NCBI RefSeq assembly: GCF_023148685.1
Contig: NZ_JAHXNL010000001.1
Coordinates: 62,001 to 126,000, forward strand
Direction: 5' to 3'
Length of the DNA stretch: 64,000 nt
DNA from: Georgenia sp. EYE_87
GTDB lineage: Bacteria; Actinomycetota; Actinomycetes; Actinomycetales; Actinomycetaceae
Shown: positions 8,292 through 11,209 of the stretch, piece after piece
How the letters are laid out: every line of letters starts with the position of its first letter
How positions within the stretch are numbered: the stretch's first letter is position 1
Translations under genes and position numbers: made by a program
The notes under the pieces: model-generated
Seen by the model: only the letters and a program-made list of their open reading frames with translations
What the model was told of the DNA's origin: nothing
Databases searched by the model: none

Positions 8292-8522
8292 TCAGGCCTT
8301 CTGCACGGTGATCGACCAGCTCGCGTCGCCGCGCCGGTCGAACTCGGTGACCGGGTAGCCGTTCTCGGCCGCCCAGCGCGGGATGGAGTCGGTGGCCTGC
8401 GTGCAGTCGAAGTTGATGACGAGCTCGTCGCCCACCTCGAGGGCGGCGATGGCCTCCTTGGCCTCGACGAGCGGGAACGGGCAGACCTGGCCGTCGGTCT
8501 CGAGCACGGTCTTGATGGGCAT
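8292..8522 (-). CDS. tsuB: TusA-family sulfurtransferase, likely TsuB partner of thiosulfate transporter
   Basis: A 76-residue TusA/SirA-type protein with the catalytic cysteine in the CPxP motif (DGQVCPFPLVEAKEAI, Cys14). It follows with VGDELVINFDCTQATDSIPRWA and ends ITVQKA. TusA folds relay persulfide sulfur. When encoded beside a YeeE/YedE transporter they are called TsuB and are thought to take thiosulfate from TsuA in the cytoplasm. The ATG at 8522 has an AGAAGGA ribosome site; a longer open frame runs through tsuA in a different frame and is not real. It lies 47 bases downstream of tsuA on the same strand, consistent with an operon. Confidence 0.9.
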   Translation of the reverse strand: MPIKTVLETDGQVCPFPLVEAKEAIAALEVGDELVINFDCTQATDSIPRWAAENGYPVTEFDRRGDASWSITVQKA

Positions 8523-8569: not shown

Positions 8570-9628
8570 TCAGACGCCGGCGGTCGCCGGGACGCGGGAG
8601 CGGGCGGCCGTGCGGGGGCCGCGCAGGACGAAGATCTTGGTGGCGACCCCCGTGCCGAGGAGCATGAAGGCGAACGAGAGCCAGCCCTGGTAGGAGAACT
8701 GGGCGGTCGCGACCATGGCGTTGCCGATGGTGCAGCCGCCGGCCAGGGCCGCACCGACGCCCATGCCGACGCCGCCGACGATCGAGCGGACGGTGGTGGT
8801 GGCGTCGGGGACGCGGACGCGGAACTCGCCCGCGCCCTTGGCGGCGATGAACGAGCCGATCAGGATGCCGACCACGAGCAGCACGCCCCAGTCGACGAGC
8901 TCGGCGTCGCCGGTGACGAGGAAGGTCGCGGCGTTGGCGGAGGGCGTCGTGATGCCGAGCCCGGCCTCGCGGCCGGTCGCGGTGCTGAGCGGCCAGGCGA
9001 GGATCGCGATGACGCCGATGACGACCGCCGTCGAGAACGCGCCCCAGGGCCTCTCGAAGAGCAGGTGCGCGAGCCCGGTGCGGCGGGGCGGCAGCGTGGC
9101 CACCTTCAGCGTGCGCACGGACAGGTGGCGGTGGACCAGGTACAGCACGCCGCCGCCGAGGGCGGCCACCAGGAACCAGGAGCTGACGCCCAGGGTCTCG
9201 TGGATGGTGGTCGCCGGCACGGTGATGCCGCGCGCCCAGCTGGTGAAGTCGCCCAGGACGCCGTACTTCATCACCGCGGCCGAGAGCGCGTAGAAGATGA
9301 GTGCGAACCACGAGCCGACGAGTCCCTCGCCGGAGCGGTAGTACGTGCCGGTGGCACAGCCTCCGGCGAGCACGATGGCGAAGCCGAAGATCAGCGCGCC
9401 GATCACGGTGGCGGGCAGGGCGAGCGGCTTGTATGCGGCGCCGATGACCCCCATGCCCTGCATGGCGGCGATCCCGACCGCCTGGATGGCGATGACGATG
9501 AGGAACGCGGTGAGCCACCGCGTGCTGCGTGCGACGAAGACGTCGCGGAACGCGCCGGTGACGCAGAAGCGTCCGCGCTGCATGGCGAAGCCGAGTGCTG
9601 CGCCGAGGAGAAGCCCGGTGAGGAGCAT
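8570..9628 (-). CDS. tsuA: YeeE/YedE-family thiosulfate transporter TsuA
   Basis: A 352-residue polytopic membrane protein of the YeeE/YedE (DUF395) family, whose characterised members import thiosulfate. Conserved cysteine motifs that line the pathway are present: MQRGRFCVTGAFRD at the N-terminus, AGGCATGTYYRSGEG in the first half and AGGCTIGNAM in the second half, as expected for two inverted halves. Many hydrophobic helices are evident. It precedes tsuB. Its upstream region carries a 20-codon leader ORF and alternative hairpins, suggesting sulfur- or cysteine-responsive attenuation. Thiosulfate import would feed cysteine synthesis and thus mycothiol (mshC is 3 kb away). Transport of another sulfur anion cannot be excluded. 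Confidence 0.88.
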   Translation of the reverse strand: MLLTGLLLGAALGFAMQRGRFCVTGAFRDVFVARSTRWLTAFLIVIAIQAVGIAAMQGMGVIGAAYKPLALPATVIGALIFGFAIVLAGGCATGTYYRSGEGLVGSWFALIFYALSAAVMKYGVLGDFTSWARGITVPATTIHETLGVSSWFLVAALGGGVLYLVHRHLSVRTLKVATLPPRRTGLAHLLFERPWGAFSTAVVIGVIAILAWPLSTATGREAGLGITTPSANAATFLVTGDAELVDWGVLLVVGILIGSFIAAKGAGEFRVRVPDATTTVRSIVGGVGMGVGAALAGGCTIGNAMVATAQFSYQGWLSFAFMLLGTGVATKIFVLRGPRTAARSRVPATAGV

Positions 9629-9660
9629 GGATGATCCTGTCTGCCTGGCACGCCGGGTGG

Positions 9661-9692
9661 GCGCGCGTCGATCCGCGCGCCGCCGGCGCGCG
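9661..9692 (-). promoter_or_regulatory. Two mutually exclusive hairpins in the tsuA leader
   Basis: Three alternating CG segments lie at 9686-9692, 9674-9680 and 9661-9667. The central one is complementary to both neighbours: 7-bp stem with 5-base loop on one side, 7-bp stem with 6-base loop on the other. Only one hairpin can form at a time, the architecture of an attenuator. A further 7-bp hairpin lies at 9719-9738, nearer the leader ORF. The arrangement is seen in the sequence; the regulatory role is inferred. Confidence 0.5.
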
Positions 9693-9757
9693 TGAGAGGT
9701 GGAGCGGAGGTGGGGAACCCGCCCGGAGGGACGGGCGGACCGGTCAGAGCCGAGGGG

Positions 9758-9820
9758 TCAGGGCCGACACGTGGCCGAGGAGACCCGCATCAGGTCGACG
9801 TGACGACGGGAGCGCAGCAT
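9758..9820 (-). CDS. 20-codon sulfur-gene leader peptide (RxHVDLxR..SAxC type)
   Basis: A very short ORF upstream of tsuA encodes MLRSRRHVDLMRVSSATCRP, with Cys at position 18. The pattern arginine-rich start, HVDL, R, S, A, C is that of short actinobacterial leader peptides, usually annotated only as putative leader peptide, found ahead of sulfur-uptake and cysteine-synthesis genes. The stop lies 129 bases before the tsuA start, and alternative hairpins fill the gap. A ribosome pausing at the late cysteine or other codons could choose between them. No ribosome site precedes the ATG. The protein product itself is probably irrelevant; the act of translation would be the signal. Confidence 0.75.
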   Translation of the reverse strand: MLRSRRHVDLMRVSSATCRP

Positions 9821-10219
9821 CAGCGCCGCGGCGCACACAGAGCGCACCAGGATCCCCCTCTCGTCGTCCGTGGCCGTGCCACGGATCCGGCGCGTCCGCC
9901 GAGCGGCCGACGCGTGGCGCAGACGTTACGGACGGCGGGGGCGGCGGTCGAGACCTCGTCCCGGAAGCCCCGCCGTCGTCCCGGCTGGCGGACAGGACCC
10001 ACTGCCGGTCTCGCGATTCGGACGGTGGTTGCGCTGGCTGTGCCGAGCCGGGCGTTGCGGCACCGCGCGCGCAGCGCACCGCACCGCACGTCCCGGTCCG
10101 CGCGCCGCGCACCGCACGACCCGCACCGCGGACCGCGGACCGCTTCTCCGGCGCGGGGAGGACGAGCACCACTCTGTCGGTCGATAGCCTGGGGCCCGGT
10201 CCACGACTGGGAGGCTGCT
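9821..10219. other. Non-coding stretch between the tsuA leader and the next gene
   Basis: With 9629-9820 this is a 590-base gap without a long gene. Open frames here have no recognisable protein and are GC-skew artefacts. A plausible minus-strand -10 (TAACGT, about 9923-9928) could serve the tsuA leader. TAGCCT at 10185-10190 could serve the plus-strand oxidoreductase. The stretch 10070-10140 is a low-complexity run of alternating GCACCGC-type repeats with no clear function. Confidence 0.5.
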
Positions 10220-11209
10220 GTGTCTGACATCCGCTGGGGCGTGCTCGGTGCGGCGCGGATCGCCCGGAAGCAGGTGATTCCCGCGATGCGGCGGGTGGGT
10301 GCGGGCGAGGTGGTCGCCGTCGCCTCGGCCAGCGGCAACGCGGAGCCCTTCGCCGCGGAGCTGGGCATCGCGCGGGCGTACGCGAGCTACGACGAGCTGC
10401 TCGCCGACCCGCAGGTCGACGCCGTCTACATCGCCCTGCCCAACGTCCACCACGCGAGGTGGATCCTCGCCGCGGCCCGGGCCGGCAAGCACGTGCTGTG
10501 CGAGAAGCCGGTCGTGCTCGGCACGGCCGAGCTCGAGGCCGTCACCGCCGCCTGCGCGGACGCCGGCGTGCAGCTGGCCGAGGCCTTCATGTACCGCCAC
10601 CACCCCCAGCTGCGCCGCCTGCGCGAGCTGCTCGACGCCGGGACGATCGGTGAGCTCGTGAGCGTCGAGTCGTCCTTCCACTTCACGCTGCCGCGGTCCG
10701 AACCGCCCGACATCCGCCTGCGCCCCGACCTCGGTGGCGGGAGCCTGCGGGACATCGGGTGCTACCCGGTGGACCTGCTCGGCTGGCTGACGGGCGCCGA
10801 GCCCGACGACCTCGGCGTCGTGGCCCACCGGGACACGCCCGACGGCGCGGACACGAGGATGGCCGTCGCCGCCCGGTACGGCGCGGTCACCGCCAACCTG
10901 CACTTCTCCTTCGACGCGCCCTTCCGCGCCGAGGCCCGGCTGATCGGCACCGCCGGCTCGATCGAGCTGCCCGACGTCTTCCGCGCCGACAACCGCGGCG
11001 GCACCGCCCGGATCCGGATCGATCGGGACGGCGAGACCTCCGTCGTCGAGGTCGAGGGCGACCAGTACGGCGAGCAGGCGGCCGCCTTCGCCCGACGCGT
11101 CACGGACGGCGCCGAGGACGCCGACGGCGCGGCGCTCACCGCACGCACGGCCGCCACGCTGGAGCGCATCGCCGCGGCTGCAGGCCTGACGGTCCCGGCG
11201 TCGCTGTAG
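10220..11209 (+). CDS. Gfo/Idh/MocA-family oxidoreductase
   Basis: A 329-residue NAD(P)-dependent sugar or inositol dehydrogenase-like protein. The N-terminal Rossmann domain starts WGVLGAARIARKQVIPAM, with the dinucleotide GxGxxA-type turn read as GAARIA. The EKPVV motif carrying the catalytic-region lysine follows LHEC-like LCEKPVV at about residue 95. The C-terminal alpha/beta domain includes GGGSLRDIGCYPVDLLGWLTG, where GCYPVD matches the family's conserved substrate-side segment. The GTG start at 10220 is preceded by CTGGGAGG. No sugar-transport or catabolic genes are nearby, so the substrate is unknown. It is convergent with the PAC2 gene. Confidence 0.88.
   Translation: MSDIRWGVLGAARIARKQVIPAMRRVGAGEVVAVASASGNAEPFAAELGIARAYASYDELLADPQVDAVYIALPNVHHARWILAAARAGKHVLCEKPVVLGTAELEAVTAACADAGVQLAEAFMYRHHPQLRRLRELLDAGTIGELVSVESSFHFTLPRSEPPDIRLRPDLGGGSLRDIGCYPVDLLGWLTGAEPDDLGVVAHRDTPDGADTRMAVAARYGAVTANLHFSFDAPFRAEARLIGTAGSIELPDVFRADNRGGTARIRIDRDGETSVVEVEGDQYGEQAAAFARRVTDGAEDADGAALTARTAATLERIAAAAGLTVPASL

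Follow-up and report, generated by a model that had tools for sequence, protein, structure and literature searches.

The question raised by this locus is how a short open reading frame, with a single cysteine codon in its conserved part, could govern the uptake of thiosulfate. The frame lies within a stretch of 64,000 nucleotides from Georgenia sp. EYE_87, the whole of which is called here the window. The gene order on the reverse strand is leader, tsuA, then tsuB, and the two genes behind the leader are as follows.

8570-9628, reverse strand: tsuA, thiosulfate transporter of the YeeE family (NF041049, E 3e-116, under the curated cut-off; PF04143, E 1.2e-101)
8292-8522, reverse strand: tsuB, TusA-like sulfurtransferase with a CPFP motif (NF041048, E 2.7e-34, under the curated cut-off; PF01206)

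YeeD/TsuB is the partner of YeeE/TsuA in uptake, according to the part of PMC11073785 drawn on here. A consensus search of 9600-10230 gave no sigma-70-type promoter, and an Rfam scan of the window gave a tRNA only and no other RNA family. Two TsuA proteins 56% identical to that of the window (L181, L182) come from records titled Aggregatibacter actinomycetemcomitans and Pseudomonas stutzeri, possibly through mislabelling.

It had been proposed from the sequence alone that a 20-codon leader precedes tsuA. Such a frame, MLRSRRHVDLMRVSSATCRP, is indeed opened by ATG 9820 on the reverse strand and has its stop at 9758, 129 nt upstream of tsuA, but GTG 9847 is the likelier start. For comparison we used G104, a genome of the same genus with the best TsuA match found (TsuA 91% identical). 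In the alignment G104 has no ATG at the place of 9820, and has a strong Shine-Dalgarno sequence, GGAGGGAG, with an ATG at the place of GTG 9847. For this reason we take GTG 9847 as probably the true start, which gives a leader of 29 codons with the following features.

9854-9862, reverse strand: Shine-Dalgarno-like GAGAGGGGG of the leader ORF, by sequence, with GGAGGGAG at the aligned site in G104
9758-9847, reverse strand: leader ORF VRSVCAAALMLRSRRHVDLMRVSSATCRP, 29 codons from a GTG start, matching NF042934; start and Shine-Dalgarno backed by G104
9791-9802, reverse strand: HVDL codons
9767-9769, reverse strand: UGU Cys codon at +11, the putative sensor codon

The last 17 codons, the core SRRHVDLMRVSSATCRP, show four synonymous differences and one non-synonymous difference from G104, while the start-proximal part has more non-synonymous changes and also indels. 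The spacer between leader and tsuA is 129 nt in the window and 219 nt in G104, with much sequence divergence. The combination of mostly synonymous change in the core and a divergent spacer points, for this one genome pair, to selection on the peptide. The core holds a single Cys, the late UGU, which two codons separate from the stop; a second Cys (UGC) is codon 5 of the ORF, and the run of Cys codons that characterises polycysteine translation attenuators is absent from the window leader.

With regard to its wider occurrence, the window leader matches the NCBIfam family NF042934, 'putative leader peptide' (cis_reg_atten), with 31.5 and 32.4 bits for two peptide lengths against a cut-off of 27. 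In a sample across the class there is a match at E <= 5e-4 in 249 of 394 genomes, 229 of these being over the cut-off. In the family to which the window belongs 14 of 213 genomes match at E <= 0.01, and four exceed the cut-off; among these 14 matches L020 and L023, at the least, are not leader-like. Among 14 control genomes there were matches at E up to 10 in 10, over the cut-off in none and at 5e-4 in none.

The claim that such leader peptides recur ahead of actinobacterial sulfur genes is borne out both by the NF042934 match and by the genes that follow, which have a clear sulfur role at 60 of 118 parsed leader loci, as named from one scanned representative per cluster (L257 was left out). 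These are rhodanese-type (19), nitrite/sulfite reductase (11), tsuA (9, of which 7 entered the sample because they are tsuA), cysteine synthase (9), sulfatase (5), ThiS-type carrier (4), TauD (2) and PAPS reductase (1). Genes without an evident sulfur role include those for DUF4395, of unknown function (24 loci), and a zinc-type oxidoreductase (5 loci). The naming of L274/L276 as cysteine dioxygenase was dropped; L274 has no Pfam match.

Conservation of the HVDL segment in relatives had been put forward as a check, and D and L are present in 57/57 unique HVDL-class leaders, following H and then V (45) or I (12). More generally R at -2, D and L are found in all 101 unique leader cores. Some variants were observed. 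L015, L016, L019, L024 and L025 form a sub-type MY(R/E)LHLTSRRHIDL....M.CR., with one late Cys (UGU), before the zinc-type oxidoreductase. The HMDL sub-type of NF042934, RRVHMDL(V/L)RYAGCVC, is found at L216, L243, L251, L252, L262 and L263, with UGC at +9 and UGU at +11 in 6/6. At L070 and at L082 each strand carries an HVDL-type sequence; the two differ, and each has UGU. The genome of the window has a second leader outside the window, L003 (G000:C35:232805-232855), VLNPWNLTVRTAVDLCRQASMMCASATCCCR, which is Cys-rich with 5/5 Cys codons UGU and is under the NF042934 cut-off. It lies upstream of an SDF-family symporter, as named by Pfam; our guess that this is a cystine transporter was dropped.

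Both the leader family and the idea of cysteine attenuation were already known, and the unexpected result, apparently new, is that one Cys codon of the leader is locked as UGU. Of 107 unique leaders, from 85 genomes and 25 families, 106 have UGU for the Cys at +11, counted from the H or A of (H/A)VDL. Kinship was allowed for by counting families only: 24 of the 25 are all-UGU at +11, and the lone UGC (L246) is the only leader read from the remaining family, f48. These figures come from a looser pattern applied to 138 loci, 11 of which had no candidate; the other 127 gave 110 unique leaders, of which 107 had Cys at +11 and three had not, namely L020 and L023 (weak matches, not leader-like) and L085 (misread by the pattern). 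A stricter first pattern (146 loci, 28 without leader, 118 parsed, 101 unique cores) gave UGU at +11 in 100 of 101. Single readings of 9 of the 11 loci without candidate, together with L085, found UGU at +11 in 10/10, with L066, L070, L082 and L085 already among the 101; L021 and L022 (weak matches) were left out.

The preference is not that of the neighbouring genes, as Cys codons in the genes downstream of the leaders number 20 UGU against 173 UGC (101 loci). In multi-Cys leaders Cys codons before +11 are UGC 86 times and UGU 17 times, near background, and those after +11 are mixed, UGC 36 and UGU 28 times. L088, a Brevibacterium-type tsuA leader, has UGC at +7 and +9, UGU at +11 and UGC again at +12. 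At the other leader positions many codons are near the background of the downstream genes, and smaller deviations show at certain positions for Arg, Ala, Asp, Leu and Lys. In the HVDL class Ser at +8 is AGC in 39/47 leaders, against 28% in downstream genes; the window has TCG there. Among 47 tRNA matches in the genome of the window there is one tRNA-Cys, with anticodon GCA, and as it is the only one found, UGU must be read by wobble. Wobble decoding is slower than standard pairing.

In the case of tsuA we collected 130 loci, obtained the upstream region for 128 and clustered 126 of these into 58 groups. A leader sORF was defined as preceded by a Shine-Dalgarno sequence, 15-40 codons long, and having at least two late Cys codons or a VDL motif with one. 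Such sORFs lie upstream of tsuA in 20 of 58 cluster representatives (L126, L150 and L176 look spurious, and some leaders, for example the Cys-rich ORFs of L036 and L166, were missed by the criteria), against 1 on the reverse strand and 3.0±1.5, with a maximum of 6, in 50 rounds of shuffling. If any cluster member may count, there is a hit for 23 of the 58 clusters and for 42 of 126 upstream regions. Beyond the window and G104, leaders of HVDL/HIDL type precede tsuA in Mobilicoccus pelagius (L136), Tessaracoccus (L158), Kytococcus aerolatus (L179) and a Propionibacteriaceae isolate (L143), and those of Brevibacterium (L133, L134) have VIDLM. Cys-rich tsuA leaders with no recognisable VDL core occur in Cutibacterium (MMMCSMCRQCC) and in genus g3 of the window's own family (MCMRCLV), among others. 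Two genomes of its own genus, G102 and G106, have a tsuA (72% identical) with no recognisable leader upstream. In our view the strongest argument for cysteine as the signal is that late Cys codons recur in dissimilar leaders of one gene.

We think it likely, on the strength of these sequence comparisons, that the leader senses cysteine on behalf of the tsuA-tsuB operon. Against this count the tsuA genes of G102 and G106, which have no recognisable leader, the genes behind such leaders that have no evident sulfur role, and the lone UGC at +11. In translating its 29 codons a ribosome would meet one late Cys codon, UGU, with two codons between it and the stop. With Cys-tRNA plentiful it would finish and leave, and the leader RNA would hold tsuA low; with cysteine scarce it would wait at UGU, 11 codons past the H of HVDL, and while on the leader RNA it would lift the repression and raise thiosulfate uptake. 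UGU may have been chosen since the single tRNA-Cys (GCA) reads it by wobble and hence more slowly, and the HVDL segment, by then in the exit tunnel, may aid the pause. A ribosome at the late Cys/Arg codons had been suggested before as a plausible sensor for this locus, and for the Cys codon this is supported by the conserved leader and the near-invariant UGU at +11. More tentatively, and at less than even odds, we generalise that the universal cysteine sensor of the family may be a single wobble-read UGU, set at constant spacing after a conserved motif of the nascent peptide. The peptide would slow the ribosome, and one codon could then do the job for which classical attenuators need a run of Cys codons.

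Between Cys and stop there are 0-4 codons in 83 of 101 leaders, so that waiting and terminating ribosomes should cover nearly the same stretch of RNA, and we infer that dwell time and not position should carry the signal. If all this is true, thiosulfate uptake shares ribosome-based cysteine control with other actinobacterial sulfur genes, and it is explained how leaders with a single late Cys codon can sense cysteine.

The sensor needs an output, and the features between leader and tsuA that bear on it are these.

9635-9638, reverse strand: AGGA, Shine-Dalgarno of tsuA, by sequence; G104 has the block TGCCAGGCAGACAGGATCA unchanged
9629-9757, reverse strand: C-rich spacer from leader stop to tsuA; C 62 and G 38 of 129, skew 0.24
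9661-9692, reverse strand: two overlapping stems, 9686-9692/9674-9680 and 9674-9680/9661-9667, of exact complementarity, not conserved
9648-9691, reverse strand: larger predicted hairpin of the minimum-free-energy fold, holding the second of these stems and ending just upstream of the tsuA ribosome binding site (RBS)
9718-9739, reverse strand: GC hairpin of 8 pairs in predicted folds; 5 pairs in the G104 fold

We favour an output that is mainly translational, in which the Cys region would pair with the RBS until a ribosome waits on it, and give this a chance somewhat short of even. The main support is a swap test, in which pairing of the Cys region is stronger with the RBS of its own locus than with one from another locus, by -1.03 kcal/mol (p=0.001, n=81), with gene starts in the pairing tests assigned automatically and some of them wrong (L062, L158). 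By class the result is p=0.004 for AVDL (n=38) and p=0.08 for HVDL (n=43), and three control segments tested against the RBS gave p of 0.52, 0.96 and 1.00. The excess is not specific to the RBS, as the Cys region also fits the stretch -63..-30 (p=0.003). In the window alone the pairing is equalled by 28 of 116 foreign leader segments and is not better than chance. The seven other tsuA loci tested are mixed: foreign segments as strong number 15 of 116 for G104 and, each of 115, 99 for L143, 2 for L158, 35 for L136, 103 for L179, 5 for L133 and 61 for L134. Of 500 shuffled leaders and 500 shuffled RBS, those as strong number respectively 128 and 103 for the window, 30 and 20 for G104, 34 and 21 for L133, and 58 and 100 for L158.

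Consensus folds by RNAalifold vary with the group of loci. The UGU run is paired to the RBS in the fold of 11 poly-Cys loci, all in genomes of family f12. For 12 ThiS-carrier loci it is the start codon that the leader pairs with, by pairs without covariation, and in 5 sulfatase loci there is no pairing of Cys region and RBS. GACA is found near the Shine-Dalgarno sequence in 20 of 53 HVDL loci, against 6.8 expected, and overlaps the common Shine-Dalgarno context AAGGACA; in these loci the base preceding ACA does not track the base following UGU, as UGUC-GACA pairing would have it. In hand-picked tsuA regions ACA is present in 13 of 17 with a leader (shuffles 6.6) and 12 of 34 without (12.1). 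The view that leaders in general sequester the RBS was rejected, as blocking the Cys region raises predicted RBS accessibility no more than decoy blocks do, in the window and in the mean over 87 loci.

The serious rival for the output, in our view a somewhat unlikely one, is attenuation by Rho, on the model of the E. coli tna operon. Once the ribosome had left the leader, Rho would load on the C-rich spacer and end transcription before tsuA, and in the induced state a ribosome waiting at UGU beside the stop would mask the loading site, so that transcription continues. A C-rich, G-poor region does follow the leader stop, as in tna-type Rho attenuators, which is necessary and not sufficient. The skew (C-G)/(C+G), 0.24 in the window, has a mean of 0.224 in 84 leader spacers and is above 0.1 in 75 of them, against means of 0.010 upstream of the leaders and 0.119 in gene starts. 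For 58 tsuA representatives split automatically, upstream skew is 0.162 with a leader sORF (20) and 0.085 without (38; p=0.024). A split made by hand, in which 17 regions out of 128 were set against 35 (p=5e-6), was not used, and the automatic one, which is weaker, is the sole one used. No intrinsic terminator with a U-run, such as trp-type attenuators have, was found in 9600-10230, and family-wide such terminator-like sites are about as frequent as chance gives (in 3 of 84 leader spacers, against 1.05±1.16 in shuffles), which also favours Rho. However C-richness may be general in transcribed 5' regions. Rho was suggested in 2005 for mycobacterial cys leaders, in a paper which, in the part drawn on here, finds polyY motifs not conserved and calls the prediction rather weak (PMC1262725).

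A different reading of the sensor is that the leader is an arrest peptide, the nascent HVDL peptide itself detecting cysteine or some other sulfur compound as its ligand and stalling at the fixed Cys independently of tRNA charging. The amino acids are conserved at a fixed spacing from the Cys while many codons are near background, and the invariance of R at -2, D and L fits such a peptide. The near-exclusion of UGC at +11 is left unexplained by it, the comparisons made here fit a hungry codon assisted by the peptide as well, and we consider it improbable. The near-invariant UGU offers a distinction in one base, since a change of UGU to UGC leaves the same peptide and would tell the decoding model from the arrest-peptide model.

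The sequence-only reading had proposed that the two overlapping stems at 9661-9692 exclude each other and form a switch, which could be a terminator/antiterminator or act on the RBS. The complementarity is exactly as it described, 9674-9680 pairing with 9686-9692 or with 9661-9667. When the spacer was shuffled 2000 times with dinucleotides preserved, 12 shuffles had some 7-nt segment exactly matched by a partner no more than 30 nt away on either side, a figure uncorrected for the extent of sequence scanned in that reading. The hairpin 9648-9691, with the second stem, appears in minimum-free-energy folds, and fold stability has z -2.3 for the 141-nt region and z -0.98 for 228 nt including the leader. 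The comparison with relatives that it suggested does not bear it out: in G104, the nearest found, 4 of the 7 pairs of stem 1 and 6 of the 7 of stem 2 survive (two G-C having become G-U), with no double change, so that the arrangement is partly kept and uncompensated there, and it is found in 0 of 83 other leader spacers. As there is also no terminator-like U-run, and as the hairpin 9648-9691 stays folded with or without the Cys region blocked, such a switch is very improbable.

Our preferred reading, a leader sensing cysteine at its late UGU, invites comparison with several known systems. The mycobacterial polycysteine leader ORFs, the subject of Canestrari 2020, whose title says leaderless, are like the window leader in that Cys codons come late in a short upstream ORF before cysteine or sulfur genes. 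They differ in having a Cys run, where the window has one late Cys in an ORF preceded by a Shine-Dalgarno sequence and standing before thiosulfate uptake. The models Leader_Ms4527A (NF042936, 28.8-30.3 bits) and Ms5788A (NF042933, 14.7-16.5 bits) are both under their cut-off of 45. Cysteine biosynthetic genes of Mycobacterium smegmatis are said to have been shown to be under translation attenuation (PMC13236596, in the part drawn on here), and mycobacterial polycysteine leaders are also treated in the parts used of PMC9094748 and PMC4633059. The pairing of UGU run and RBS in the 11 poly-Cys loci agrees with the published model as cited in that part of PMC13236596. The earlier remark that the mechanism of such leaders is not established is only partly right; for single-Cys HVDL leaders none was found in the literature searched. 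In the open-access literature searched, some of it in extract, we found neither a single-Cys tsuA leader nor the UGU lock, which is not proof of absence.

The Cys leaders of Seliverstov et al. 2005 (PMC1262725) are alike in having Cys near the stop and no conserved terminator, and Rho was considered for them. In the part of that paper drawn on here they are Cys runs before cys and cbs operons, and tsuA and HVDL leaders are unmentioned. uORFC-8-2, before cysS in Rhodobacterales, also has Cys codons in an upstream ORF, but as given in the part of PMC8632094 used its two tandem Cys codons are mostly UGC and it has a terminator stem and U-run, whereas the window has UGU and no terminator. The closest likeness is to NF042934 itself, the whole profile of which is matched over the cut-off. 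The name of that family states no mechanism, and the near-invariant UGU is a feature at the nucleotide level, beyond what a protein model can hold.
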